Shown here: piece after piece, positions 17,862 through 49,282 of the stretch
Numbering within the stretch: position 1 is the first letter of the stretch
Layout of the letters: each line of letters opens with the position of its first letter
Source: Spiroplasma clarkii
Lineage (GTDB): Bacteria; Bacillota_I; Bacilli_A; Mycoplasmatales; Mycoplasmataceae
Direction: 5' to 3'
Length of the DNA stretch: 64,000 nucleotides
NCBI RefSeq assembly: GCF_002795265.1
Contig: NZ_CP024870.1
Location: 1,116,001 to 1,180,000, forward strand
The notes under the pieces: model-generated
Told to the model about the DNA's origin: nothing
Databases searched by the model: none
The model's input: the letters and a program-made list of their open reading frames with translations, nothing else
Translations under genes and position numbers: made by a program

Positions 17862-17893
17862 ATAAAAAATACACTTCCCTATAGAAGTGTATT
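17862..17893 (-). terminator. Terminator of surface-protein cluster 1
   Basis: AATACACTTC / GAAGTGTATT with a T run on the minus strand, just past the last lipoprotein gene. Its core (CACTTC...GAAGTG) resembles the terminator of cluster 2 at 27,415-27,442. Confidence 0.85.
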
Positions 17894-17919
17894 AAATGGT
17901 CTATAACTATCTAAAAGCT

Positions 17920-18693
17920 TTAAGAACTTTGATTAGGTTTAGGGATTTCTTTTCTATCAAATCAAATGGAATAACCATTTGCATTTAAAACTCCTTTTTC
18001 AGTAATAAAGAAACTTTCATATTTGTTTTCATTAGGATTAAGGTCTCAAAAGATTGATGATTCAAGTACTTTTACTTCAACATAACCATATTGAATAAAT
18101 GTATCATATGCACTTTTAATTTCATCAATCACTAGTCCATTAAATTCTGAAAAGCTATGATCTTCTAAGGTTCATTCATCATATCCATTTTTAGATTCAT
18201 ATCTCATTTTTGGAAAAATAAGTTTATACATTTCAAATATGCCTGATGGGGCATTATTTGGGAATTTATAATCTAAATATGAGTATGTTTCATCTCCATC
18301 TTTGTCTTTAAAAACTCAGTCATTTATTGTTTTATTTTCACTATAATCTCTTTCAAACTTAGACACTGCATATCTAAGAGGGCTGGCAATTCTGTTTCTC
18401 ATAGAATATTCTATTTTTGCTCAAAATTGCCACATGTTTTCATCTTGATTATGGCCCGACCAGTTTTTTCTAGATGATATTTGATACAGATCCTTTAAGT
18501 CATAGAATATTTCACTTTTTTCCATTTGCATTTTCAAAAACTCTTTAAAACTATCAAATTTAACAAGTTCTTTAACTTTAGGGATTTCTTCCTCTTCTTC
18601 GGGGATATATCTTCTTGGAGTACATGAAACCACATTTATTACACCAATGGCACTAACTGAGATTGCTCCTAATATTGATAATATTTTTCTCAT
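17920..18693 (-). CDS. Small lipoprotein, type 1, copy 1a
   Basis: 257 aa. Signal peptide MRKILSILGAISVS with lipobox ending at Cys24 (VINVVSC), so acylated and surface-anchored. A Glu-rich stretch (EEEEEIP) follows. Type 1 has the middle segment beginning EIFYDLKDLYQI; the C-terminal part (VEVKVLESSIFW, ENKYESFFITEKG) is shared with type 2. Last codons differ from the other copies (KPNQSS instead of PEDNQDD). Ribosome site AAGGAG overlaps the stop of the partial gene upstream. Function unknown. Confidence 0.88.
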
Positions 18694-18707
18694 TTTCTTT
18701 TTTCTCC

Positions 18708-19034
18708 TTAATATATTAATTGATAAATTTCTCGAACAACTTGTTCAAGATCTTGATCATTTGATCAATAGAAGTTTTTTGTAATGTTGTTGTCTTTATA
18801 AACATAAACAAGTTCTTTTTTATAAATTGTTGTTACTGATGCTATTAAATTTATATTTGTTTTGTATGATAGAATTGCATTTTCATAACTGTTAAAGTAT
18901 AAATTTTGTCCACTGGTTTTATATGTGTAAACATTGTATTTTCCGTTTGAAATTAAATCTGTAAATGAATTTTTAATATTCTTAATTTCAGCTTTGTGAA
19001 CATAACTTGTTTTAATATTTAAAATTGATTTTAA
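18708..19034 (-). pseudogene. 3' fragment of the 742-aa gene (fragment 1)
   Basis: In-frame copy of roughly the last 100 codons of the gene at 21,969-24,197, from NIKTSYVHKA to EIYQLIY and TAA. It begins within a few bases of the upstream lipoprotein stop and has no start codon or ribosome site. Lacks nine bases (TDF) at a short direct repeat. Its TAAGGAG supplies the ribosome site of copy 1a. Confidence 0.85.
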
Positions 19035-19036
19035 CT

Positions 19037-19774
19037 TTAATCATCTTGATTATCTTCTGGGGTTGGGATTTCTTCTCTATCAAATCAAATGGGATAACCA
19101 TCATTATTTACAACATCTTTCTTGGTGATAAAGAAACTTTCATAACCGTTCTCATTGGGTTTGAGGTTTCAAAAAATTGATGATTCAAGCACTTTTATTT
19201 CAACATAACCAAACCTTTGATAAGTTAAAAATGTATCAGTGTTTAGATCAATTACAAGAGCTTTTGACTTTGTATAATCGTCAGGTACAATTGTCCAATC
19301 TGCTTCATTTTCATCAGATTGAACTCTAATCTGAGGATAAATAATGCCATAATAGTCAATAAATATCTCTTCCATTTCTTTTCCTAAAGTTTTATTTAAA
19401 TAAGTATATGTTTCATCTCCATCTTTATCCATGAAAACTTCAGTATTAACTTTACCACTGTCTCTCCAAAGACTTCAACGTGAAATATTTATTGATTTTT
19501 TAACACCATCTCGCATTAAATCAAGTTTCTCTAAAAATGACTTCTCTGTGCCATCATTTGATCGAAAACTATATGTATCAAATCAAACTATGTCACTTTT
19601 TTCCATTTGCATTTTTAAAAAGTCTACAAAGCTATCAAATTTAGCAAGTTCTTTAACTTCAGGAATTTCTTCCTCTTCTTCAGGGATATATCTTCTTGGA
19701 GTACATGACACCACATTCACTATACCAATCGTACTAACTGAGATAGCTCCTAATATTGATAATATTTTTCTCAT
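19037..19774 (-). CDS. Small lipoprotein, type 2, copy 1b
   Basis: 245 aa with the same signal peptide and lipobox (Cys24, VNVVSC) as the type 1 copies. The middle differs: DIVWFDTYSF, then MDKDGDETYTYLNKTL and IIYPQIRVQSDENEADW. The C-terminal segment VEIKVLESSIFW...NGYESFFITKK and the tail PEDNQDD are shared. Several Trp are TGA-coded. Surface-anchored; function unknown. Nearly identical to the cluster 2 copy at 28,693-29,430. Confidence 0.88.
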
Positions 19775-19787
19775 TTTCTTTTTCTCC

Positions 19788-19980
19788 TTAATATATTAAT
19801 TGATAAATTTCTCGAACAACTTGTTCAAGCTCTTGATCATTTGATCAATAGAAGTTTTTTGTAATGTTGTTGTCTTTATAAACATAAACAAACTCTTTTT
19901 TATAGATTGTTGTTACTGATGCTATTAAATTTATATTGTTTTTATATGTGTAAACATTGTATTTTCCATTTGAAATTATT
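19788..19980 (-). pseudogene. 3' fragment of the 742-aa gene (fragment 2)
   Basis: Shortest fragment. KYNVYTYK is joined directly to NNINLIAS: 57-60 bases between two YK codon pairs are deleted in frame relative to the full gene, removing one repeat module. Upstream of KYNV the similarity stops and about 100 bases of unrelated AT-rich sequence (19,980-20,084) lead to the end of copy 1c. Confidence 0.8.
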
Positions 19981-20084
19981 TATAGTTTACCAACATTATT
20001 CTTATCAAATTAATAATCTCTGAAGCAAGATTATAACCCCTTATTGTTATTTATTGTTTTAATTATCATCTAGTATTTAACTTC

Positions 20085-20822
20085 CTAATCATTTTTTCGT
20101 GGTGGAATATCATTTGTATCAAACCAAATTCGAAAACCATCATCATTCACTAACCCATATTCAGAAACATAAAAACTTTCATAACCATTTTCATTTGGTT
20201 TGAGATTTCAAAAAATTGATGACTCAAGTACTTTTATTTCAACATAACCAGACCTTTGATAAGTTCGAAATGTATCATAGTTTTGATCAATTACAAGAGC
20301 TTTTGACTTTGTATAATTGTCAGGCACAATTGTCCAATCTGCTCCATTTTCACCAGATTGAACTCTAATCTGAGGATAAATAATGCCATAATAGTCAATA
20401 AATATCTCTTCCATTTCTTTTCCTAAAGTTTTATTTAAATAAGTATATGTTTCATCTCCATCTTTATCCATGAAGACATCATTATTAACTTTACCACTGC
20501 TATTGTAATTTCTCCAAAGACTTCAATGTGAAGTATTTATTGAATTTTTAACGCCATCTCGCATTAATTCGAGTCTCTCTAAAAATGACTTCTCTGTGCC
20601 ATCATTTGATCAAAAATTATATGTGTTAAATCGAACTACATCACTTTTTTCCATTTGCATTTTTAAAAAATCTATAAAACTATCGAATTTAGCAAATTCT
20701 TTAACTTCGGGGATTTCTTCCTCTTCTTTGGGGATATATCTTCTTGGAGTACATGAAACTGCATTTATTACACCAATAGTGCTAACTGAGACTGCTCCTA
20801 ATATTGATAATATTTTTCTCAT
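20085..20822 (-). CDS. Small lipoprotein, type 2, copy 1c
   Basis: 245 aa, lipobox VINAVSC with Cys24. Same type 2 middle (VVRFNTYNFW, MDKDGDETYTYLNKTL). The end differs from its sister copies: IWFDTNDIPPRKND, and its stop is TAG instead of TAA. Because fragment 2 downstream is also the most altered fragment, this 3' region looks like an older or independently recombined junction. Confidence 0.87.
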
Positions 20823-20836
20823 TTTCTTTTTTCTCC

Positions 20837-21174
20837 TTAATATATTAATTGATAAATTTCTCGAACGACTTGTTCAAGATCTTGGTCATTTGATCAATAG
20901 AAGTTTTTTGTAATGTTGTTGTCTTTATAAACATAAACAAATTCCTTTTTATAGATTGTTGTCACTGAGGCTATTAAATTTATATTGTTTTTATATGATA
21001 AAATTGCGTTTTCATAACTATTAAAATATAAATTTTGTCCATTAGTTTTGTATGTGTAAACATTGTATTTTCCATTTGAAATTAAATCTGTAAAATCTGT
21101 AAATGAATTTTCAATATTTTTAATTTCAGCCTTATGAACATAACTTGTTTTAATATTTAAAATTGATTTTAACT
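20837..21174 (-). pseudogene. 3' fragment of the 742-aa gene (fragment 3)
   Basis: In-frame copy of about the last 110 codons (NIKTSYVHKA to EIYQLIY), closest of all fragments to the intact gene, starting right behind the stop of copy 1d and ending in the TAAGGAG that serves copy 1c. No start codon. Confidence 0.85.
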
Positions 21175-21954
21175 TTAATCATCTTGATTATCTTCTGGGG
21201 TTGGGATTTCTTTTCTGTCAAATCAAATGGGATAACCATTTTCATTTAGAACTCCTTGTTCAGTAAAAAAGAAACTTTCATAACCATTTTCATTAGGTTT
21301 AAGATCTCAAAAGATAGATGATTCAAATACTTTTACTTCAATATAACCTTTTTGAGTAAATGTATCATATGCACTATTGATTTCATCAATTACCATCCCT
21401 TTGAATTCTGAAAAACTATGATCTTCTATGATTCATTCACCATTTCCGTCTTTAGATTCATATCTCATTTTTGGATAAATAAGCCTATACATTTCAAATA
21501 TGCCTGATGGGGTAGTATTTGGGAATTTATAATCTAAATATGAGTATGTTTCATTACCATCTTTGTCTTTAAAAACTCAGTCATTTATTCTGTTATTTTC
21601 TTTATAATCATTTTCAAACATAGACCTTGCATATTCAATGGTGTCAGCAATTCTACTTCGCATATAATAACTTACCCTAGTTCAAAACTTCCCTATATTT
21701 TCATCTCTATCACTTCCTAACCATCCTTTTCTAGGAGATATTTGGTACAGGTCCTTCAAGTCATAAAATATTTCACTTTTTTCCATTTGCATTTTTAAAA
21801 AATCTGTAAAGCTATCGAATTTAGCAAATTCTTTAACTTCAGGTATTTCTTCCTCTTCTTTGGGGATATATCTTCTTGGATTACATGAAACAACATTTAC
21901 TACACCAATGGTGCTAACTGAGACTGCTCCTAATATTGATAATATTTTTCTCAT
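21175..21954 (-). CDS. Small lipoprotein, type 1, copy 1d
   Basis: 259 aa, lipobox VVNVVSC with Cys24, followed by NPRRYIPKEEEEIP. Type 1 middle (EIFYDLKDLYQISPRKGW) and shared C-terminal region. First small lipoprotein after the intact 742-aa gene: its ribosome site AAGGAG overlaps that gene's TAA at 21,969, so translation is likely coupled. Confidence 0.88.
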
Positions 21955-21968
21955 TTTCTTTTTTCTCC

Positions 21969-24197
21969 TTAATATATTAATTGATAAATTTCTTGAACAA
22001 CTTGTTCAAGATCTTGATCATTTGATCAATAGAAGTTTTTTGTAATGTTGTTATCTTTATAAACATAAACAAACTCTTTTTTATAGATTGTTGTTACTGA
22101 TGCTATTAAATTTATATTGTTTTTATATGATAAAATTGCATTTTCATAACTGTTAAAATATAAATTTTGTCCATTAGTTTTGTATGTGTAAACATTGTAT
22201 TTTCCGTTTGAAATTAAATCTGTAAAATCTGTAAATGAATTTTCAATGTTTTTAATTTCAGCTTTGTGAACATAGCTTGTTTTAATATTTAAAATTGATT
22301 TTAAATAATTAACTGCATCATTTTCATTGTAGTCCTCAGCAATCAATTCTCCATTTGGATTATATAAAAATACTTTTTTATATAATATTGGGTTTTGTTT
22401 GTCAAACTGAATTTGCTTTGCACCCTCAATAGTATTTGACAAATTGTATCCTTGTAAATCACTAAAATCTTCAAGGGTTGTTTTTGTATCACTTACAAAT
22501 CATTTTTCTTGTAAGTTGACACTTCCATTATTTGTATCGTCTAGTAAATAAAAATTGTTTTTTCATTCATCATAAGTCATACTGATATTATACCCATCAA
22601 GTAAAACAAATTTTTCATTTGGATCAATGCTTTTATATTCATTTAATAGTTCTTCTTGTATTAACTTACTAGTATAAACTGAAAAGTTGCTTATATTGCT
22701 ATTGCTGTAAATTCAATCTTCAACTAAAACTTTACTGTCAAAAATAGCAGTTGGGTTATCAGAAAGATATTTTTTAATTTCATCTTTAAGTCTCAATTTT
22801 ACTTCATAACTCATTGCTATATATGACTTAAATATTAATTGATCTTTAAAATTGTCAATCAATTTTTTTCCAGCATTGTAAATATATTTATTTAAAACAT
22901 AACCAACACTTTTAGGTATGCTACTGTTTAATCTAAATTGAACATTATTGGCTAATTCACTCTTTTTGAAAGTGCTATCTTTTAAATTTGTTTTTGCATA
23001 TTCTTCTCCTCATTTTTCATAAGTGGCAGATTTTATTGTGAAACTTTTACCACAAATTGTAAATGTTTTCTGATATCAATCAAATAAATCATCATCACCC
23101 CATCATCAATGTTTACCTTGTTCTATACCTTTTTTTCATGTTGCATAACTTGTAAAATCATTGTAAAATGCAGCTGGATCAAATTTTTTCATTAATTTAT
23201 TTCCAGATATTTCAATAGTTAAAACATCTTTTCTATTATTAACTGATTTACCATTTGTTGCTGATGAGATTTTAATAGTACCTTCATTTGTTGTGTATAT
23301 GTCTGAACCTTTACCATTTACTGTAAAATAATCCATATCCTCACCAATTTCAATTTTAATTGTGTAAACACTTTGATTTACATTTTCAACAATATTTTCA
23401 ACTTGTTTGCCTGAAAAGATTTCATTAAGATCTGCTTCAAGTTTGTTTACATAAACATCAGCAAAATTTTCTCGACTTACAGCAAATGATTTGTTTAGAT
23501 TTAATTTTTTATTGCCATTATCTAAGCTACTTGCATCATAATAATATGCTTTTGTCATTGATGCTTTCATTCTTTCAAAATCATTTTTGTTAAATGCGTT
23601 ATAGTAGCGACCATTGTAATAGTACATTAGAGCTTTTTGAGGTTGATTAAAACTTGTATTTTTATAAGCAATTTTTGCTTCTTCAGTTGAATCATAAAAT
23701 AATGAGTTATCATAACTATATTTAACTCTTGTTAGTCCAGGATTTATGTAACTCTCTAAGACTCTCTCATAAGCTGTTTTATTACTTTGAATGCAGCCTC
23801 CAACTCCATCACTTTCCATACAATTTGGTAAAATTGTTTTACCATAAAAATTTCGAGCAACTTGGGTAAAATCTTTTTGATTAGTTCCATAAATTCTATC
23901 TCCATCAATTTTTCCGGTTGCATAATCTAATGATATTTTTTGTGGATCACTTGATGTGGTAATTTCACTAATGGGATTTTGTGCTAAAAGTTCTTTTAAA
24001 ATTTCATTTTCACTTTTATATTCTTTTCCATTATATTCATAAGTACTTCCTTCTCTTAAAAATTGAGAATTATATTTAACTTCTTCATATATGGCTTTAA
24101 TTTTTTCATTATAATTAATTCCCACTGGTATTGCTGCTGCAGTTGGTACTGCAAAACTAGTAAAACACAGTGATGCTAATAATTTTGTTTTAAGCAT
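21969..24197 (-). CDS. Secreted modular surface protein, 742 aa, cluster 1
   Basis: Signal peptide MLKTKLLASLCFTSFAVPTAAA without lipobox cysteine, so secreted or N-terminally anchored. The body contains at least six degenerate copies of a module of pattern Y-x-Y-x-G-x-x-Y-x-S-x-x-E-A, for example YNGKEYKSENEILKELL, YYYNGRYYNAFNKNDFERM and YTYKTNGQNLYFNSYENAI. No enzyme motif recognised. Four or more TGA codons encode Trp (for example KGIEQGKHWW). Start ATG 24197 lies directly behind the stop of the 846-aa gene (AAGGAGGTGGCTTAA site). Exact length match with its paralogue at 29,445-31,673. Confidence 0.9.
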
Positions 24198-26738
24198 TTA
24201 AGCCACCTCCTTCACATTATTTAATAAGTAATCAGTTAATTGGTTAATATTGTAAAATATAATGCCATTTAACTCATAAGTTGATGCATTAATTTGAATC
24301 AATGAGTTTCTAAAGTCATTTAGTTGCATATATTTGACAATTGCACCATTGTAGTCGTCAAAATAATAGTTTTTACCATTGAAGAAGAATTTATATAAGT
24401 CATAACCATCGTTGTCAACATTTTCTAATTTTTCAAAATTATTGGTTGATAAGTAATCTGTAAACTCAACTGCTTTACCTTGTAGATCAACAGTTTCAAC
24501 AACTCTATCATAAACTTCATTGTAATCATAGCCATAGATATAATTACCTTGAAAATCGTATTTAAATACTGCAATATATTTTTGACTTGCAATTTTTCTA
24601 ATTGCACTATTTACAGCTTCACTTTGGTTTGAAAAAGTTTCTCCAAAACCATCACTATATGCATTTTTTTTATCAGTTTGTTGCATCAATAAACTGATTA
24701 ATTTATTTTTATCTATGTTATACATGTGTTCAAAATATTTTGAAACATATCTTACTTTACTTGGATCTGCAAAAAGATCATCAATAATGTCTCTTTTTAA
24801 TCTGTATAAAGCATCATTATAACTTGTAAAGTATTTTTCATTGTATAAATATGTAATTGTATCTTTTGGTTTTGAAATTTCTAATGTCTGAACAATATTT
24901 TTAGGATTGAACTCTTTAACATCTCAAAATCATGAAGATCTTTGATAAGTTACTTTATTTTTAGTATCCGGAATAACAAATTCTCAATTTTCTGTTGTTT
25001 TTCCAGGAATCATATTAATTAAATTAATTGCAAGGTCAACTCATACCAATGCTTTCTTTAGTTTTTTAGTCAATTTTTTAAAATTTTCTGATACATCATT
25101 CATAGTGTCTCTTATATCATGTATCTTTTTTGCTCAATATTGAACATCTTTTAATGAAATAACTGCATCTTTTAAATAATTATTATAAGTTTGAGCCAAG
25201 CCCTTGCTTTTTACAGAAGATAAATTGTTTGGATTCATCAACAAATCTAGTACTTCATAGATTTTACCACTAGCTTTTGCTGTCTCTATAACTTCAACTC
25301 ACTTATCACTAAGTTCAATTTCTCCATGATTTGTTCTTTTTGAATCTGAACCAAAGAAATTTATATTTAAAGATAATAAACTATTATACATAAACTCTTC
25401 CATTATTTTTGCATCAGGTTTTGAAATATCTACACTTCTCAATAGCTCTCTTATGTTGTACAAAACTACAATTACTTTTTTGTTTTGTTCCATTTCTTTC
25501 ATTGGAGCCAATCCATTTCAAAGTGCATCAATTTCTTGATCTAATTGGTACTTTTCAAGTACACCTTTAAAACCTGAACTTGATTTTTTTAAACTACTGC
25601 TATTTTTTAAATAATTAGTCATTCCATAAGTTACAACACTATCATTTTTTGAAACTTCAAGAAACTTAGCCAGTTTATCAAAATAAACTTCTACTGTTGA
25701 AGCAAAATTATTCAAGAGAGAACCACCTGAACTACTAAGCATATTGTCATAATAACTCATAGATCCTAGTGCTGATACCAAATTATTTGAAACTGTGTTA
25801 AACACCTCATCAGCCAAGCCTGATGTAGACTTAGATATCAACGTTCAATTGTTTTTATCTTTAATTAATTCTGAAACATTGTTGGTAGTTTTTTGGTAAT
25901 TACCACCTTCAATTTGCAATGTACCATCATCATTAGGATCTGCCTCTAAATAATACATTCCAGGTTTTTTCTCAAGTTTTAAAATCTTGTCAAGATCACT
26001 GTCTTTTACCTTAAAACCTGATAAATTAAATTTATTTTCTTCACTAATAACCTGGTTATTGTATTCGACTGATTTTACAATACTTTTCTCTAGACTTTTT
26101 TCAAATACTCCTTTTTCATATCAAAAATTACCAAGTTTATGGTATTGTTTTTTGCTTAATTTAATTTTTTCTCCTTCAAATTTATTTTGATAGTATGCAA
26201 CTAGTTGCTCTTTGCTTTGAAAGAATTTACCATCTGCTTCAAAACCATTTTGAATTTTGTTTGTATATGAATTAAGTACATCAATTTTACTTTTTTCATC
26301 ACTTCCAGAATAAACTGCATTACCGTTTGAATCCTTGTAGGCATTTACAATATCTTCTTTATTTACAACTCCATCTGCTGAAATTGAACCCAAAGAATCT
26401 GTCAAATACATTTTTGGGTCTTTGTAGGTTTTTACCTTTGTAATACTGGACTCACTCTCAATGTGATTTAACATTCCTGAAATTGATGTAAAATCCTTAT
26501 TTCCTAATATTATTTCGTTTTTGTAATTTTCACTTTTGTTTACTGTAGTCTTTTTTGATACAAAGTATTCCACAGCCGCTATTTTTGAATCAAATGTTTC
26601 ACCAAATAATTCATATTTAATATTATCGTCTTCTCAGTTTTCTAAAGTTGGAACATTTTTTGTTCCACAAGAAACCACAGATACACTAGTTGATGTGATA
26701 AGCATAACACTTGCAAGTGTTAGCAGTAATTTTTTCAT
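24198..26738 (-). CDS. Large modular lipoprotein, 846 aa, cluster 1
   Basis: Lipoprotein signal MKKLLLTLASVMLITSTSVS with lipobox Cys24 (SVVSC). Residues about 30-240 contain repeat modules (YELFGETFDSKIAAVEYF, FFQSKEQLVAYYQNKF); the middle (about 270-560) is long helical sequence; the C-terminal third has further modules (YLYNEKYFTSYNDALYRL, FFNGKNYYFDDYNGAIVKY). No catalytic motif recognised. In-frame TGA Trp codons occur throughout. Strong GGAGGTGATTTT site before ATG 26738. First gene of the cluster 1 operon; the next start follows its TAA without a gap. Confidence 0.9.
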
Positions 26739-26760
26739 AAAATCACCTCCAAATCAACCC

Positions 26761-26770
26761 TAACGCTTTT
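26761..26770 (-). promoter_or_regulatory. Conserved AAAAGCGTTA element ahead of the 846-aa gene
   Basis: AAAAGCGTTA 23 bases before the start codon. The same ten bases stand at the same distance before the paralogous gene (34,259-34,268), in otherwise diverged sequence. Role unknown. Confidence 0.4.
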
Positions 26771-26866
26771 TTTCCAAAAAGGCAAATTTTTTTTGAAAAA
26801 AATTTCATTAGTTAATTTGGCAGGTAACTTTTTACAAAATTAGTTTTACAATTAAATTCTTATCTA

Positions 26867-26896
26867 GTTGTAAAAGTTTTAGCATGATTTTACAAC
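26867..26896. repeat. Inverted repeat GTTGTAAAA / TTTTACAAC
   Basis: Perfect nine-base arms (26867-26875 and 26888-26896) around 12 bases, between the orphan IS gene and the cluster 1 promoter region. Could be an operator or an IS scar; no T run follows, so not a terminator. Confidence 0.5.
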
Positions 26897-26991
26897 TTGT
26901 GGTGCTTATAAATTATTTTCACTTACTTAACTCATTCATAATATATGCTTTTAAAAAATTAAATATTTAATCATCTAAAGTTCTAATTTGA

Positions 26992-27288
26992 TTATTTTTT
27001 CTTGCTTATCAGTAACTCAATTTTCTTTCAAACTTCATCTCTTAGTTCTAACTTAGCATTCTTTTTCTTTAACTCCTTATTCTCATTTCTTAAGTTTATT
27101 AATTCTTCTTTATTGGCTGAATCTTGCAAACCTAAACCATCAATTCCAAATTGATCATATTTTTTGCACCAATTTAATAGAGTTTGACCTGTTATGCCAT
27201 AACTCTTAACAAATCACTTAACACTCACTTTATCTTGTCTAAATTTTAAAATTATTTTTTCTTTTTGTTTTGGTGAATAATTTCCCAT
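26992..27288 (-). CDS. Orphan IS3-type transposase OrfA
   Basis: 98 aa. N-terminal helix-turn-helix (PKQKEKIILKFRQDKVSVK, FVKSYGITGQTLLNWCKKYD) and a C-terminal leucine-zipper-like helix (EELINLRNENKELKKK), the standard IS3/IS150 OrfA layout. TGA-coded Trp are present. Ribosome site AAGGAG. The catalytic OrfB (DDE) is missing: fewer than 260 bases separate its stop from the next gene, and no DDE motif is visible. IS outer end may be the TTTTTGTCTAGAAAAAGTGG region near 27,345-27,365. A remnant, not an active element. Confidence 0.85.
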
Positions 27289-27414
27289 AAACAGTCTCCT
27301 TCCTGACAATATTATTTTACATTTAATATAAATATAATTAAATTTTTTGTCTAGAAAAAGTGGCTTTTATATAATTTAATAGCTAATCTGATGCAATTAC
27401 AAAATAGTTTTAAT

Positions 27415-27442
27415 AAAAAATGCACTTCTTATGAAAGTGCAT
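27415..27442 (-). terminator. Terminator of surface-protein cluster 2
   Basis: ATGCACTT / AAGTGCAT hairpin with TTTTTTATT on the minus strand, at the downstream end of cluster 2 and equivalent to the one at 17,862-17,893. Confidence 0.85.
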
Positions 27443-27445
27443 CAA

Positions 27446-27562
27446 AATATTTTACTAGTAGTTTTATGTCTGATTTAATTAAATCTTTAAATGAATTTTC
27501 AATGTTCTTAATTTCAGCTTTATGAACATAACTTTTTTTAATATTTAAAACTGATTTTAACT
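27446..27562 (-). pseudogene. Truncated 3' fragment of the 742-aa gene (fragment 5)
   Basis: Behind the stop of copy 2a the sequence again reads LKSVLNIKKSYVHKAEIKN, but after about 25 codons it leaves the gene and runs into the cluster terminator. It shows that the array once continued downstream and was cut. Confidence 0.75.
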
Positions 27563-28342
27563 CTAATCATCTTGACCAATTTCTGAGGTTGGTATTTTTT
27601 CTCTATCAAGTCAGATGGAGTAGCCGTTTTCATTTAAAACTCCTTTTTCAGTAATAAAGAAACTTTCATAACCATTTTCATTTGGTTTGAGATTTCAAAA
27701 GATTGATGATTCAAGTACTTTTATTTCAACATAACCTTTTTGAATAAATATATCATATGTTCTTTGAGTTTCATCAACTACCATTCCATTGAATTTTGTA
27801 TTATCATTATCTTCCAAAATTCATTCATCATCTTCACCCTTAGATTCATATCTTATTTTTGGATAAATAAGTGTATAATTTTCAAAAATACTTGATACAG
27901 AAGAAGTAGGAAACTGAGATTTTAAATATGAGAATGTTTCATCACCGTCTTTGTCTTTAAAAATTCAGTCATTTACTGTTTTATCTTCATTATAATCTCT
28001 TTCAAACATAGATCTTGCATAACTAAGGGTGCTAGCAGTTCTATATTGCATATTGTAACTTATACCTTTTCAAAAGTTGCTTATATTTTCATCTTTATCA
28101 CTTTCTAGCCATCCTTTTCTGGAAGGTAACTGGTACAGGTCCTTTAAGTCATAAAATATTTCACTTTTTTCCATCTGCATTTTTAAAAAGTCTGTAAAGC
28201 TATCGAATTTAGCAAGTTCTTTAACTTCAGGGATTTCTTCCTCTTCTTTGGGGATATATCCTCTTGGAGTACATGACACCACATTTACTACACCAATGGT
28301 GCTAACTGAGATAGCTCCTAATATTGATAATATTTTTCTCAT
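27563..28342 (-). CDS. Small lipoprotein, type 1, copy 2a
   Basis: 259 aa, signal peptide and lipobox VVNVVSC (Cys24). Type 1 middle (EIFYDLKDLYQLPSRKGW), variable central region (YNMQYRTASTLSYARSMF) and shared C-terminal segment; tail SEIGQDD with TAG stop. Last gene of cluster 2. Surface-anchored; function unknown. Confidence 0.88.
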
Positions 28343-28355
28343 TTTCTTTTTCTCC

Positions 28356-28690
28356 TTAATATATTAATTGATAAATTTCTTGAACAACTTGTTCAAGGTC
28401 TTGATCATTTGATCAATAGAAGTTTTTTATAATGTTGTTATCTTTATAGACATAAACAAACACTTTTTATAAATTGTTGTTACTGATGCTATTAAATTTA
28501 TATTGTTTTTATATGATAAAATTGCATTTTCATAACTATTAAAATATAAATTTTGCCCATTGGTTTTGTATGTGTAAACATCGTATTTTCCATTTGAAAT
28601 TAAATCTGTAAAATCTGTAAATGAATTTTCAATGTTTTTAATTTCAGCTTTATGAACATAACTTGTTTTAATATTTAAAACTGATTTTAA
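28356..28690 (-). pseudogene. 3' fragment of the 742-aa gene (fragment 4), frameshifted
   Basis: Copy of about the last 110 codons, from NIKTSYVHKA to EIYQLIY. One A is missing in the KKEF codons near 28,466, so the frame is lost there. No start codon. TAAGGAG at its end forms the ribosome site of copy 2a. Confidence 0.82.
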
Positions 28691-28692
28691 CT

Positions 28693-29430
28693 TTAATCAT
28701 CTTGATTATCTTCTGGGGTTGGGATTTCATCTCTATCAAATCAAATGGGATAACCATCATTATTTACAACATCTTTCTTGGTGATAAAGAAACTTTCATA
28801 ACCATTCTCATTGGGTTTGAGATTTCAAAAAATTGATGACTCAAGTACTTTTATTTCAACATAACCAAAACTTTGATAAGTTAGAAATGTATCATGGTTT
28901 AGATCAATTACAAGAGCTTTAGACTTTGTATAATCATCAGGTACAATTGTCCAATCTGCTTCATTTTCATCAGATTGAACTCTAATCTGAGGATAAATAA
29001 TGCCATAATAGTCAATAAATATTTCTTCCATTTTTTTTCCTAAGGTTTTACTTAAATAAGTATATGTTTCATCTCCATCTTTGTCCATGAAAGCTTCAGT
29101 ATTAACTTTACTACTGTCTCCCCAAAGACTTCAATATGAAATATTTATTGATTTTTTAACACCATCTCGCATTAATTCAAGATTTTCTAAAAATGATTCC
29201 TCTGTGCCATCATTTGATCAAAAACTATATGTATCAAATCAAACTATATCGCTTTTTTCCATTTGCATTTTTAAAAAATCTACAAAGCTATCGAATTTAG
29301 CAAGTTCTTTAACTTCAGTGATTTCCTCCTCTTCTTTGGGGATATATCTTCTTGGAGTACATGACACCACATTTACTACACCAATGGAGCTAACTGAGAT
29401 AGCTCCTAATATTGATAATACTTTTCTCAT
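28693..29430 (-). CDS. Small lipoprotein, type 2, copy 2b
   Basis: 245 aa, lipobox VVNVVSC (Cys24). Differs from copy 1b (19,037-19,774) at only scattered residues across its whole length, including the type 2 middle and the tail PEDNQDD. Follows the intact 742-aa gene of cluster 2, whose TAA overlaps the AAGGAG ribosome site. Confidence 0.88.
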
Positions 29431-29444
29431 TTTCTTTTTTCTCC

Positions 29445-31673
29445 TTAATATATTAATTGATAAATTTCTTGAACAACTTGTTCAAGATCTTGGTCATTTG
29501 ATCAATAGAAGTTTTTTGTAATGTTGTTGTCTTTATAAACATAAACAAATTCTTTTTTATAGATTGTTGTTACTGATGCTATTAAATTTATATTGTTTTT
29601 ATATGATAAAATTGCATTTTCATAACTATTAAAATATAAATTTTGCCCATTGGTTTTGTATGTGTAAACATTGTATTTTCCATTTGAAATTAAATCTGTA
29701 AAATCTGTAAATGAATTTTCAATGTTTTTAATTTCAGCTTTATGAACATAACTTTTTTTAATATTTAAAACTGATTTTAAATAATTAACTGCATCATTTT
29801 CATTGTAGTCTTCAGCAATCAACTCTCCATTTGGATTATATAAAAATACTTTTTTATATAATACTGGGTTTTGTTTGTCAAACTGAATTTGTTTTGCACC
29901 TTCAATAGTATTTGATAAATTGTATCCTTGTAAATCACTAAAATCTTCAAGAGTTGTTTTTGTATCACTTACAAATCATTTTTCTTGCAAGTTGACACTT
30001 CCATTATTTGTATCATCTAGTAGATAAAAATTATTTTTTCATTCATCATAAGTCATACTGATGTTATACCCATCAAGTAAAACAAATTTTTCATTTGGAT
30101 CGATGCTTTTGTATTCACTTAATAGTTCTTCTTGTATTAACTTACTAGTATAAACTGAAAAGTTGCTTATATTGCTATTGCTGTAAATTCAATCTTCAAC
30201 TAAGACTTTACTATCAAATGTATCAAATGGATTATCAGTGAGATATTTTTTGATTTCATCTTTAAGTCTTAATTTTACTTCATAATTCATTGCTATATAT
30301 GACTTAAATATTAATTGATCTTTAAAGTTATCAATTAAATCTTTTCCAGTATTGTTAATGTATTTATTTAAAACATAACCAACACTTTTAGGTATATTGC
30401 TGTTTAATCTAAATTGAACATTATTGGCTAATTCGTTTTTTTTAAAAGTGCTATCTTTTAAATTTGTTCTTGCATAGCCTGGTCTTCATTTTTCATAAGT
30501 GGCAGCTTTCAATGTGAAGCTTTCACCACAAATTGAAAATGTTTTTTTATATCAATCAAATAACTTATCATCACCTCAGTCTGGATCATAACCATATTCA
30601 ATACCTTTTTCTCATGTTGCATAACTTGTAAAATCACTGTAAAATGCAGCTGGATCAAATTTTTTCATTAATTTATTTCCAGATATTTCAATAGTTAAAA
30701 CATCTTTTCTCTTATCAATTGATTTACCATTTGTTGCTGATGAGATTTTAATGGTACCTTCATCTATTGTGTATATGTCTGAACCTTTACCATTTACTGT
30801 AAAATAATCTTTATCCTCACCAATTTCAATTTCAATTGTGTAAACACTTTGATTTGCATTTTCAACAATATTTTCACCTTTCTTGGTTGAAAAAACTTCA
30901 TTCAGATCTGCTTCAAGTTTATTTGCATAAACTTCAGCGAAATCTTCTCGACTTACTGCAAATGATTTGTTTAAATTTAATTTTTCATTGCCATTATCTA
31001 AGCTACTTGCATCATAATAATAAGCTTTTGTCATTGAAGCTTTCATTTTTTCAAAATCATTTTTGTTAAATGCGTTATAGTAGCGACCATTGTAATAGTA
31101 CATTAAGGCTTTTTGAGGTTGATTAAAACTTGTATTTTTATAAGCAATTTTTGCTTCTTCAGTTGAATCATAAAATAATGAGTTATCATAACTATATTTA
31201 AATCTTGTTAATCCAGGATTTATATAACTATCCAAAGCTCTTTCATAAGCTGTTTTCTCACTTTGAATACAACCTCCAACTCCATCGCTTTCAACGCAAT
31301 TTGGTAAAATTGTTTTCCCATAAAAGTTTCGAGCAACTTGAATAAAGTCTTTTTGATTAGTGCCATAAATTCTATCTCCATCAATTTTTCCAGTTGCATA
31401 ATCTAATAATATTTTTTGTGGATCACTTGATGTGGTAATTTCACTAATGGGATTTTGTGCTAAAAGTTCTTTTAAAATTTCATTTTCACTTTTGTATTCT
31501 TTTCCATTATATTTATAAGTACTTCCTTCTCTTAAAAATTGAGAATTATATTTAACTTCTTCATATATGGCTTGAATTTTTTCATTATAATTAATTCCCA
31601 CCGGAACTGCTGCTGCAGTTGGTACTGCAAAACTAGTAAAACACAGTGATGCTAATAATTTTGTTTTAAGCAT
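29445..31673 (-). CDS. Secreted modular surface protein, 742 aa, cluster 2
   Basis: Same length as the cluster 1 paralogue; the N-terminal 350 residues differ at only scattered positions. Signal peptide MLKTKLLASLCFTSFAVPTAAA without lipobox. Contains the same Y/F-rich modules; the last two (YTYKTNGQNLYFNSYENAI and YVYKDNNITKNFYWSNDQD) are those found again in the array fragments. Trp mostly TGA-coded. ATG 31673 lies one base behind the TAA of the 853-aa gene. No catalytic motif seen. Confidence 0.9.
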
Positions 31674-31674
31674 T

Positions 31675-34236
31675 TTAAGCCACCTCCTTCACATTGTTTA
31701 ACAAGTAATCAGTTAACTGATTAATGTTGTAAAATACAATGCCGTTTAACTCATAAGTTGATGTGTCAATTTGAATTAATGAGTTTCTAAAGTCATTTAG
31801 TTGCATATATTTGACTATTGCACCATTGTAGTTGTCAAAATAATAGTTTTTACCATTAAAGAAGAATTTATATAAGTCATAACCATCGTTGTCAACATTT
31901 TCTAATTTTTCAAAATTGTTGGTTGACAAGTAATCTGTAAATTCAACTGCTTTGCCTTGTAGATCAACAGTTTCAACAACTCTAGTGTAAACTTCATCAT
32001 AATCATAACCATAAATATAATTACCTTGGAAATTGTATATAAATGCTGCAATATATTCTTGACTTGCAATTTTTCTAATTGCACTATTTACAGCTTCACT
32101 TTGGTTTGAAAAAGTTTCTCCAAAACCATCACTGTATGCATCTTTTTTATCAGTTTGTTGTATTAATAAACTGATTAATTTATTTTTATCTGTATCATAA
32201 ATATAATCAAAATATTTTGAAACATATCTTACTTTACTTGGATCTGCAAAAAGATCATCAATAATGTCTCTTTTTAATCTGTATAAAGCATCATTATAAC
32301 TTGTAAAGTATTTTTCATTATATAAATATGTTATAGTATCTTTTGGTTTTGAAATTTCTAGTGTCTGAATAATATTTTTAGGATTGAATTCTTTAACATC
32401 TCAAAATCATGAAGATCTTTGGTAAGTTACTTTATTTTTAGTATCTGGAATAACAAATTCTCAATTTTCAGTTGTTTTTCCAGGAATCAGATTAATTAAT
32501 GTAACTGCTATATCAACCCATATTAAGACTTTGTTTAGTTTTTTTGTTAATTCTTCAAAAGCCTCTGTTACATTTTCTAATGAGTCTCTTATGTCATAAA
32601 TTTTTTCTGCTCAGTACTGGACTTCTTCCAAAGAAGTAGCAGCATAGACAAGGTAATCACTATAAATTTTATAAATATCACCTAAAAAATTTCTGTTAGT
32701 AGAAGATAAGTAATTTGGATCCATAAGTAAATCTAATATTTCATAAACTTGGCCATTACTTTTTGCAGTTTCTACAACTTCAATTCATTTATCACTAAGT
32801 TCAATTTCCCCATGATTTGTATCTTTTGAGTCTGAACCAAAGTAGTTTATGTTTAGTGATAATAAACTATTATACATAAACTCTTCCATTACTTGAGCAT
32901 CATCACTTGCAACATCAACACTTCTCAATAGTTCTCTTATGTTATATAAAGCCACAATTACTTTTTTGTTTTGTTCCATTTCTTGTAATGGTGTCAAACC
33001 ATTTCAAAGGGCTTCAATTTCTTGATCTAGTTGATATTTTTTAAGGACCTCTTTAAAGTCTAAACTTGATTTTTTTAAATCACTTCTAGTTTTTGAAACA
33101 ACTTTTGCATAACTTTGTTTTCCGTATTTTGATGCTCCAAGATTTTGTTGGTTTTCAAAGAATTTAACTAGTTTGTCAAAATAAATTTCAATTGTTTCCA
33201 TAAAATCATTAAAGAGTGATGCCCCTGCAGTTAAAGTTACACCATCATAGTAGCTCATAGAACCTAGAGCAGACACCAAGTTGCTTGAAACTGTGTTAAA
33301 CACTTCATCTGCTAAACCTGATGAAGATTTTGAGACCAAGCTTCAATTGTTTTTATCTAAAATTAGTTCTGAAACATTTTGGGTGGTTTTTTGATAATTA
33401 CCACCTTCAATTTGCAATGTTCCACCATCACTGGCATTTGCTTCTAAATAATACATTCCAGGTTTTTTCTCAAGTTCTAAGATTTTATCAAGATCACTGT
33501 CTTTTACTTTAAAACCTGATAGGTTAAATTTATTTTCTTCACTAATAACCTGGTTATTGTATTCAACTGATTTTACAATACTTTTTTCTAAGTTTTCTTC
33601 AAAAGTTACTTTGTCATACCAAAGATTACCAAGTTTGTGATACTCTTTTTGATCTAACTTAATTTCATCTCCTTCAAATTTATTTTGATAATATGCAGTT
33701 AGCTGCTCTTTGCTTTGAAAGAGCAAACCATCTGCTTCAAAACCACTTTGAATTTTGTTGGTGTATGAATTAAGTACTTCAGTTTTACTTTTTTCATCAC
33801 TTCCAGAGTAAACTGCATTACCATTTGAATCTTTATAGACATTTACAATGTCTTCTTTATTTACAACTCCATCTGCTGAAATTGAACCCAAAGAATCTGT
33901 TAAATACATTTGGGGGTTCTTGTAGGTTTTTACCTTTGTAATGCTAGCTTTACTTTCAATATGATTTAACATTTCTGAAATTGATGTAAAATCTTGATTT
34001 CCTAATGTTATTTCATTTTTGTAACTTTCATTTTTGTTTACCACAGTCTTTTGAGACACAAAGTAATCAACAGCTTCTGCTTTTGAGTTAAATGTTTCTC
34101 CAAATAACTCATATTTTGTACTATCATCATTTCAGTTATCCAAGTTTGGAATATTTTTTGTTCCACATGCAACTACAGATATACTAGATGATGTAATCAT
34201 CATAACACTTGCAAGTGTTAGTAGTAATTTTTTCAC
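31675..34236 (-). CDS. Large modular lipoprotein, 853 aa, cluster 2, GTG start
   Basis: Paralogue of the 846-aa lipoprotein. Starts at GTG 34236 (reads KKLLLTLASVMMITSSSIS with lipobox Cys24, SVVAC); GGAGGTGATTTA precedes it, and the first gene's ATG is at the equivalent position. N-terminal modules (YELFGETFNSKAEAVDYF, FQSKEQLTAYYQNKF), helical centre with extra residues relative to cluster 1, and C-terminal modules. In-frame TGA Trp codons. Lies 74 bases downstream of a large membrane protein gene without an obvious terminator between, so read-through from it is possible. Confidence 0.9.
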
Positions 34237-34258
34237 TAAATCACCTCCGCCTCTACAA

Positions 34259-34268
34259 TAACGCTTTT
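34259..34268 (-). promoter_or_regulatory. Conserved AAAAGCGTTA element ahead of the 853-aa gene
   Basis: Same ten bases and same distance to the start codon as upstream of the 846-aa paralogue (26,761-26,770). Confidence 0.4.
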
Positions 34269-34310: not shown

Positions 34311-36080
34311 TTAAAATTTAATGGTTTTTTTAAATAAGTCCTCTAATAGGTCATCTAGTGTATAGATATTTGAAACGTCAGCTACAAATTTATTTTTAAT
34401 AATAATTAAGACAAAATTTGTAATGATCATCAGACAACTTAGTGTTAGTGACACCAGTAAAACATAATTTTCTTGGTAACTTTCTAATTTATCAAGACTG
34501 ATTTCATTATTAATTTTTCTAAAACCAATGTTTGTCACCCCATCAAAAAGATATAGGGTTTCAATATTTTGGAGTTTCACATCAAGATTTGATCTATCCT
34601 GGTTTTGGTTTTGATAAATGTAAAATAACTTATTAAAATAATCTAAAACATTTAAGGAGTTGTATAGTTTATTGTTTTCTTCATTGACTCTTAATTTCAA
34701 AACCTCTGCTTCAGTAATTTTTGCTGTAGACATTAGATTAACTTTTAATATATTTGAAAATGGGATATTAATAAATTGATTAAGACTTTGATAACCATAT
34801 CTTTTTTTAAAATCACTTAATAACTTATTATCAGACAAGTTAAAGACTGAGTCAAAGTAATTTAAATTTGCCTTTTTTATACTCTCACCTTGGAAAAACA
34901 ATAATACATACTCTTGGTATGTTTGTAAAAATTCTTCATCAGTTCATGATTTATAAATGGTACAAACAAATACTTCTTTTAACAATTGTTTTGATAGTGC
35001 TAAAATATAAACACCTCTGATTTCATCAACTTTTACCATAAAGCCATCCATATTTATTGACCAATAATCAAATAAATTAACTGGGATTTTATCAAATTCT
35101 AATTCTGTAAATTGTTGAAAATCTTTTTGTAAATCATAAAGTAGATCAGATCCTTTAACTCAAGTTATTAGTTTATCTAAATTAACAAAATTATCTTTGT
35201 TATATAACATATTGTTAACTAGTTTGTCTAATTTTTGATCTTGTAAAATATTTGCTATATTATTTGGATTGATTTTTTCAAAAGCCAATAATTGTTCATT
35301 GTGATTATTAAGTAATTTATAGTCAATATTAAAATTACTTAAAATTTTTGTCAAGATTGCTAATGAATCATTATTAACTGATAATGTTGAAAAGTTATCT
35401 TTATAGATTTTTGAGTTTTTAATGCTAAGTAGATTTTTAACTTCTTTATAATCATATGAATCATCATTAATCTGAAAGTAAATTTGGTCCTTATTTAATG
35501 AAAAATTTGACAATGAAACTGAAGTCATTATTAAATTTGTTACAAATAAAACAAAAATTACAAACATTGGTGTAAATGATAAAAATTTTTGTTTTCTAAA
35601 TAAATAAACTACTAAACATAATATTGGCAAGTAAATCAAAATTACTATAACTGCAATGGCAATTGTTGTTAAATAATAAATGAAATTATTTAGACCATTT
35701 GTTGTAATACTAAATTGTAACAAGAAATTAAAAAATCCTAGTATTGCTATAATGGCCACTATAAAAACAATTGAAAAAAGATAGTCATATAATGTGGTGA
35801 GAAATCTTGTTCAACCACTTTTTAATTCATCATAATATTTTGCTTTGTAATTTTTAAAGATATACTCTCTGGCTTCATCAAATGTTAATCATGGGATTAA
35901 GAATAAAAACAAAAAGGGACTATAAATTCTTAAATTAGCTGCAACTAAATTCAAAAATTCACTGCTGTCATTTCTATGCAAATTTATAAGACAATTTGCT
36001 ATAGCAAATGCTATAAAAATTATTGTAATTATGGTGTATCTTTTTCATTTCTTTAATCTTAATTTAAAGTTAACAAGCAT
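34311..36080 (-). CDS. Large ABC-permease-like membrane protein, 589 aa
   Basis: About six membrane spans in the first 190 residues, a large hydrophilic, presumably outer domain (about 190-540) and one C-terminal span (LLVSLTLSCLMIITNFVLII). The same architecture is seen in the two permeases at 51,872-55,436, which lie next to an ATPase; here no ATPase gene is adjacent. Start ATG 36080 behind GGGTGA. Trp codons are TGA. Substrate unknown; position directly ahead of cluster 2 suggests a link to surface-protein export, which is inference only. Confidence 0.75.
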
Positions 36081-36173
36081 TTTATTCACCCATCTTTCAA
36101 TCTTGAAGTTTGATATTTAATGCATAATTTAATTTTAAAAATAATTTTTGCTTTGCTTTTTAATAACATTTCT

Positions 36174-48244: not shown

Positions 48245-49282
48245 TTATTTCATAATTTCAATTAGTTTTGTTTGGATTTCATTGTATTTTTCAGGGTTTG
48301 TTAAAAATCACTCTTTAACAGCTTCTTTACCTTGACCAATTTTTTCATCTAAATATGAATATCAGACTCCTGCTTTGGTTAAGATATTATACAGTGATGC
48401 TAACTCAATGATTTCTTGTTCTTTATCAATACCTTTATTGTAGGCAATGGTAATTTGACAAGTTTTAAATGGTGGTGATACTTTGTTTTTAACAACCTTA
48501 ATTTTAATTTTATTAGCACTGGCTTCACCATTACTAGTTATGGTTTCACCTTTTCTAACTTCTAAACGCACTGATGAGTAAAAGCGCAAGGCTCTACCCC
48601 CAGGGGTGATTTCTGGGTTTCCAAAAACTACTCCTACTTTTTCACGTAATTGGTTAATAAAAATTACAGTTGTGTTGGTTTTTGAAATTATCCCATTTAA
48701 TTTTCTTAATGCTTTTGACATTAATCGGGCCTGTAAACCAATATTTTGGTCACCCATTTCACCATCCAATTCAGTTTGTGGTACTAATGCTGCCACTGAA
48801 TCCACAACAACTAGTGAAATAGTTTTTGATTTAACTAGCATTTCTAAAATATCTAGTGCTTGCTCACCTGAATCAGGTTGGGCCACCACCAAGTTTTCAA
48901 TATCAACTCCAAGATTTTTTGCATATTTGGGATCTAGTGCATGTTCTGCATCAATAAATGCAGCTCTGCCCCCAAACTTTTGAGTTTCTGCAACTGCATG
49001 TAATGATAAAGTAGTTTTACCACTTGATTCAGGTCCAAAAATTTCAATAATTCTACCTTTAGGGTAACCACCAATTCCGATGGCTCTATCAATTAAAAAA
49101 CTTCCTGATGGGATTGCTTCAATTAAAGCATTGGCTTTATCACCAAGACGCATAATTGAACCTTTACCAAAGGTTTTTTCAATTTCTTTAATGACATTTA
49201 AAAACTCTGGGTCTTCATAAATATTTTCTGCCAAATTAATCACCATCCCTGTGTTAGTTTCTGATTTTTTTTCTTTTAACAT
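48245..49282 (-). CDS. recA: Recombinase RecA
   Basis: 345 aa, full length. Walker [19 protein letters not shown], Walker [11 protein letters not shown]1/L2 loops ([20 protein letters not shown]) and a normal C-terminal domain. Start ATG 49282 behind GGAGGCAAATA. TGA-coded Trp near residues 311 and 328. An intact recA matters because some spiroplasmas have a truncated one; it could drive recombination among the repeats at 17.9-34.3 kb. Confidence 0.98.

Follow-up and report, generated by a model that had tools for sequence, protein, structure and literature searches.

In Mycoplasma genitalium the MgPar copies, which are dispersed, match MG192 in its variable middle but not at the conserved ends, and their recombination into the expressed gene has been seen (PMC2169797). 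In Borrelia hermsii silent vmp genes move into one active site, and in this expression site a variable lipoprotein core lies between conserved flanks that are the places of exchange (PMC6011951). In the genus Spiroplasma ordinary head-to-tail arrays of lipoprotein paralogues are found, such as L130 and L131 (genomes G001 and G010), which hold tandem MOLPALP-like lipoproteins of ~610 aa, six in L130 and three plus one in L131, some of the copies being nearly identical. The locus described here belongs to Spiroplasma clarkii, a beetle gut symbiont with one 1.56-Mb chromosome (PMC6007557); the assembly used is a single contig of 1,560,007 bp, read with genetic code 4 (TGA = Trp), and the window, i.e. 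the whole stretch of DNA analysed, is 64,000 nt long. As in MgPa/MgPar, a Mollicute surface operon is accompanied by partial, promoterless copies of an intact gene and by recombining repeats, but unlike MgPar the copies match the conserved 3' end, lie in tandem inside the operon and have a complete lipoprotein gene after each (the truncated last fragment of operon 1 excepted, see below). The vmp expression site is resembled in the variable lipoprotein core with conserved flanks, with the differences that each lipoprotein gene of the present locus is served by a ribosome site of its own and that no separate silent store was seen. The head-to-tail paralogues are shared with L130 and L131, but the copies in those arrays have their own spacers of 280–430 nt, and no upstream-gene fragment was found in the arrays.

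Two surface-protein operons lie in tandem in the window, both on the minus strand. They are built from the genes for a large lipoprotein (A), an exported protein of 742 aa (B) and a lipoprotein of 245–259 aa (C), and from F, which repeats the final part of B. The gene order is A1-B1-C1-F12-C2-F2' in operon 1 (34239 to 27480) and A2-B2-C3-F34-C4-F45-C5-F56-C6 in operon 2 (26738 to 17920) (Table 1). Minus-strand terminators were found behind F2' and behind C6 only, so that each array, judged from the sequence, is probably one transcript. The operon is present a third time at 617 kb, there with a single A, B and C and zero fragments, and this copy is presumed to represent the un-duplicated state. 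The 578-aa protein located before A-B-C at that locus (L054:2923-4659) has an N-terminus similar to that of the 592-aa membrane-type protein in the window, and the two are perhaps a fourth operon member. Short repeated motifs of the type YxxNGxxYxSxxxA, shared by A and B, could be seen by eye near the ends of the two (window 21969-26738) and perhaps form a common module.

Table 1. Features of the two operons and their surroundings, in window positions.
Feature	Position	Strand	Basis
592-aa membrane-type protein, upstream of operon 1	34311..36089	-	
A1, lipoprotein of ~854 aa at the head of operon 1, start codon uncertain	31675..34239	-	lipoprotein signal by sequence
B1, intact 742-aa exported protein	29445..31673	-	
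C1, 245-aa lipoprotein, core type II	28693..29430	-	
F12, B 3'-end fragment, ~111 codons, 1-base loss (frameshift), ends in C2 ribosome site	28343..28692	-	
C2, 259-aa lipoprotein, core type I	27563..28342	-	
F2', truncated B fragment, ~28 codons, common 5' junction	27480..27562	-	
Intrinsic terminator, end of operon 1	27419..27443	-	
IS3-type transposase OrfA remnant, separating the two operons	26992..27309	-	
A2, lipoprotein of 846 aa at the head of operon 2	24198..26738	-	
B2, intact 742-aa exported protein	21969..24197	-	
C3, 259-aa lipoprotein, core type I	21175..21954	-	
F34, B 3'-end fragment, open frame of 112 codons lacking a start codon with ribosome site	20823..21174	-	
C4, 245-aa lipoprotein, core type II	20085..20822	-	
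F45, B 3'-end fragment, single-copy unrelated DNA upstream, 57-nt in-frame internal loss	19775..20084	-	
C5, 245-aa lipoprotein, core type II	19037..19774	-	
F56, B 3'-end fragment, 9-base loss	18694..19036	-	
C6, 257-aa lipoprotein, core type I	17920..18693	-	
Intrinsic terminator, end of operon 2	17868..17893	-	

All six C genes are intact, and each opens with a lipobox and has its own TAAGGAG ribosome site, making C a tandemly duplicated lipoprotein family of head-to-tail paralogues with two core types, type I (C2, C3 and C6) and type II (C1, C4 and C5). Searches of Pfam and NCBIfam gave zero matches for B, and for A and C lipoprotein signal models alone matched above chance level. Membership of MOLPALP (TIGR04547) was not supported, the match being confined to the signal peptide and reaching 21 bits where 65 are required. 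For the structure model of C (pLDDT 79) the best PDB match was no better than E 0.38, and that of B (pLDDT 60, pTM 0.29) was too poor for a structure search.

An earlier note on this DNA had described startless copies of the 3' end of B between the small lipoproteins, and five such fragments could be identified with scores far above those of shuffled windows. F34 matches the other copies with 281–580 bits over 193–350 nt, the F2' remnant reaches 115 bits and a 39-nt piece of F45 68 bits, the chance level (the best match in shuffled windows) being 39.9 bits. The losses and the truncation that the note listed were all recovered (F12, F2', F45 and F56 in Table 1), and its description of the fragments as lacking start codon and promoter agrees with our searches, in which no start codon with a ribosome site was found in any fragment and promoter-like matches amounted to 140 where 118 were expected (sd 11.6), at most ~2 sd above shuffles, a count too close to chance to speak for an internal promoter in each fragment. 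A search of Rfam for known RNA elements gave no match. When analysing the 5' ends a common junction appeared in F12, F34, F56 and F2', where the stop codon of C (TAA or TAG) is followed by AG and TTAAAATC, and this same starting base, two bases past the C stop, points to one founding junction. F45 is the one exception among the five, and the notion of fragments placed directly behind a lipoprotein stop therefore applies to the other four; F45 begins with ~105–120 nt of non-B DNA, followed by the 39-nt piece, the 57-nt in-frame loss and the last 193 nt of B. This upstream DNA (window 19965-20084) was found to be single copy when searched for in the whole genome, and it holds GGTTATAAT, a possible promoter hexamer. 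At the 3' end the stop codon of B overlaps the ribosome site of C (TAAGGAG), and the same motif, proposed earlier to end every fragment, ends four of the five and serves the next lipoprotein, but not F2', which has no lipoprotein behind it and is followed by the intrinsic terminator (27443-27419).

With a probability of about 0.7 we interpret the locus as a recombining lipoprotein array, in which C was multiplied, the 3' ends of B were carried along as leaders and the arms, i.e. the B 3' piece together with the beginning of C, have been exchanged. C, the last gene of the operon, would have multiplied in two tandem A-B-C operons and, since its ribosome site is fused to the B stop, a translatable copy of C must drag the 3' end of B along, so that every duplication yielding such a copy would start inside B and carry a B 3' piece as leader. 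A duplicated unit of the B 3' end plus one lipoprotein, the simpler view put forward in the earlier note, is well supported by the junction, the intact C genes, the TAAGGAG overlap and the recurrence of the layout in relatives with other breakpoints. The B 3' pieces would be untranslated spacers within one long transcript. Unequal crossing-over and conversion between arms would add and remove C units, recA being intact as previously noted (window 48425-49195, E 3.8e-131), and recombination in the arms would both swap arms between the C types and, time and again, overwrite F with sequence of coding B genes. This leaves a lipoprotein repertoire whose flanks are homogenised and whose cores are old and divergent, and its diversity may be of benefit.

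In other genomes of the family, L059, L091 and L090 also have a B gene with a lipoprotein behind it and then a B 3' piece with a second lipoprotein; in L090 a transposase gene is inserted in the B 3' piece. L058 contains four units of a B 3' end with a 344-aa lipoprotein, with one of the B genes intact, and dispersed B 3' pieces with C occur in L055, L056 and L057. Each tandem array has breakpoints of its own in B (nt 1894/2243 in the window, 1442/2329 in L058, 1980/2305 in L059, 2080/2317 in L091 and 1632/2358 in L090), and the lipoproteins belong to unrelated families, except for those of L059 and L091 and the L090/L092 pair (with a weak likeness to L058), so that most of these events look independent. 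Ten of the 11 full-length C homologues stand behind a B 3' end. The sole one without is L111:1501-2271 (G008), with transposase pieces upstream. In L092 a lipoprotein is duplicated without F between the copies, and the carry-over of the B end is thus not universal. A terminator-like hairpin is present behind the first lipoprotein of L059 (L059:8856-10082, G030), and the second lipoprotein, behind the B fragment, therefore probably needs its own promoter.

To compare arms and cores, the 5' arm of C was taken as 61 codons and the core as codons about 64–220. The whole arm (~540 nt), in which a B 3' piece is joined to the first ~61 C codons, stands before every C with 92–98% identity. Synonymous divergence per site in the C arm is 0.18 between core types and 0.21 within them, while in the C core it is 0.58 between types and 0.22 within; expressed as dS, the core differs by about 1.1 between types and the arm (F with the first ~61 C codons) by about 0.2 whatever the type. 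For eight of the nine pairs of different type the contrast between arm and core gave Fisher p values from 1e-3 to 1.5e-6, and for the ninth pair 0.008. The two core types are old, and flank divergence in the C array is independent of them. Within types arm and core agree, which argues that the arm is not simply slow-mutating, and on these divergences the arm must have been exchanged between the C types. In tree tests the core data reject the tree of neighbour pairs (p 8e-41), but the arm holds too few changes for the core grouping to be rejected (AU p 0.14 and 0.62), and the argument for exchange thus rests on divergence and not on topology. In L058 the arm is closer than the rest in every pair of lipoproteins, and between the dispersed L055 and L056 of G003 most of F is 92–100% alike, the core 40–60% and the tail 90–100%. 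These two loci (L055:8156-10189 and L056:7813-11379) lie ~1 Mb apart; the DNA upstream, the B 3' fragment and the 5' end of the lipoprotein gene are nearly identical in the two, and the lipoprotein cores are divergent. Fragment-free tandem lipoprotein arrays are common in the genus, and an old tandem duplication followed by independent drift, with no later recombination, would be a plain account of the array; it is contradicted by arms that are equally close within and between core types when the cores are not, selection on the RNA as a cause of low arm dS is disfavoured by the within-type pairs, and the drift of the fragments was not neutral (see below), all of which makes this account very unlikely.

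One of the two readings offered in the earlier note is silent cassettes. The fragments would then be promoterless archives that vary the 3' end of B by gene conversion as in antigenic variation, a reading in line with homologous in-frame 3' pieces without start codon adjoining an expressed gene and with the intact recA. At two sites near the junction, moreover, F12 and F2' have the variants of B1, and F34 and F56 those of B2, which suggests exchange between B and F within each array. The copied part of the gene does not bear this out, as B1 and B2 are 95–98% identical over their last 740 nt and 81–91% in the middle, the last third of B thus being among its least variable parts, and the fragments themselves show few amino-acid differences. 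The variation sits instead in the lipoprotein, complete, behind each fragment, and the breakpoints vary between genomes where archives would keep a defined variable region. Cassettes for B are accordingly very unlikely; of the recombination idea it can be retained that recombination acted, but its product is exchanged lipoprotein flanks and no mosaic B.

The fragments have diverged in a coding-like manner. Between F34 and F56 there are ~17.5 synonymous and ~4.5 replacement changes (dS 0.36, dN 0.017), the L058 fragments have a similar pattern, and when neutral drift was simulated with the substitution spectrum held fixed about three times the replacements seen were predicted for F34-F56 and for the L058 fragment pairs (P below 5e-5). 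The synonymous excess between fragments relative to this model has P <= 0.002 in the window and below 5e-5 at L058, which rules out independent neutral drift of the fragments, although F12 looks more neutral and the L055-L056 pair is not significant (P 0.06). The fragments are therefore either translated or have mostly a history as functional B, having moved lately into the F position. Translation, as short C-terminal proteins made by reinitiation after the lipoprotein stop or by a change of frame, or another function in such a form, would explain why the bias is strong between fragments none of which has a full gene, why the private changes are 6 synonymous and 0 replacement in F34 and 13 and 5 in L058 Fb, why long open frames are kept in F34, L058 Fb and the dispersed fragments of G003, and why two of the three indels in the window fragments are multiples of three. 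It is at odds with the absence from the fragments of a start codon with ribosome site and of a signal peptide, with a frame unlike that of the preceding C, for which a slip within the last four codons of C would be needed, with the frameshifts in F12, L058 Fc and the L092 fragment and the truncation of F2', with the neutral look of the private changes of F12 (2 synonymous, 3 replacement) and with the L055-L056 fragments, which are not clearly constrained; we regard it as improbable. Late refilling from B is preferred because start and ribosome site are missing, several fragments are broken and some frameshifted ones retain the synonymous bias. As dS between fragments (0.29–0.36) exceeds that between B1 and B2 (0.16), such refilling would have to draw on B alleles of greater diversity than this genome shows.

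A further reading, possible but rather doubtful, is that the B 3' pieces are kept for use as recombination arms, and that crossing-over with the 3' end of B itself would swap the lipoprotein core behind B. The C directly behind B is of type II in operon 1 and of type I in operon 2.

Lipoprotein families in tandem are already known in kind, and so are exchanged flanks. New, as far as our searches of the literature went, are a flank that consists of the dead tail of the neighbouring gene and the recurrence of this arrangement, for which no earlier report was found. It is easy to mistake startless fragments that lie in tandem with surface genes for silent cassettes; scars and archives can be told apart by shared junctions, by the spread of breakpoints in relatives and by the divergence of arm versus core. 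Where a ribosome site overlaps the preceding stop codon, duplication of the second gene leaves fragments, which then supply homology for rearrangement. The likely beetle host has no antibodies, which raises the question of what purpose lipoprotein diversity serves, and, if the arms are indeed maintained, cells of an invertebrate symbiont would reshuffle a surface lipoprotein by way of the tail of its neighbour gene.
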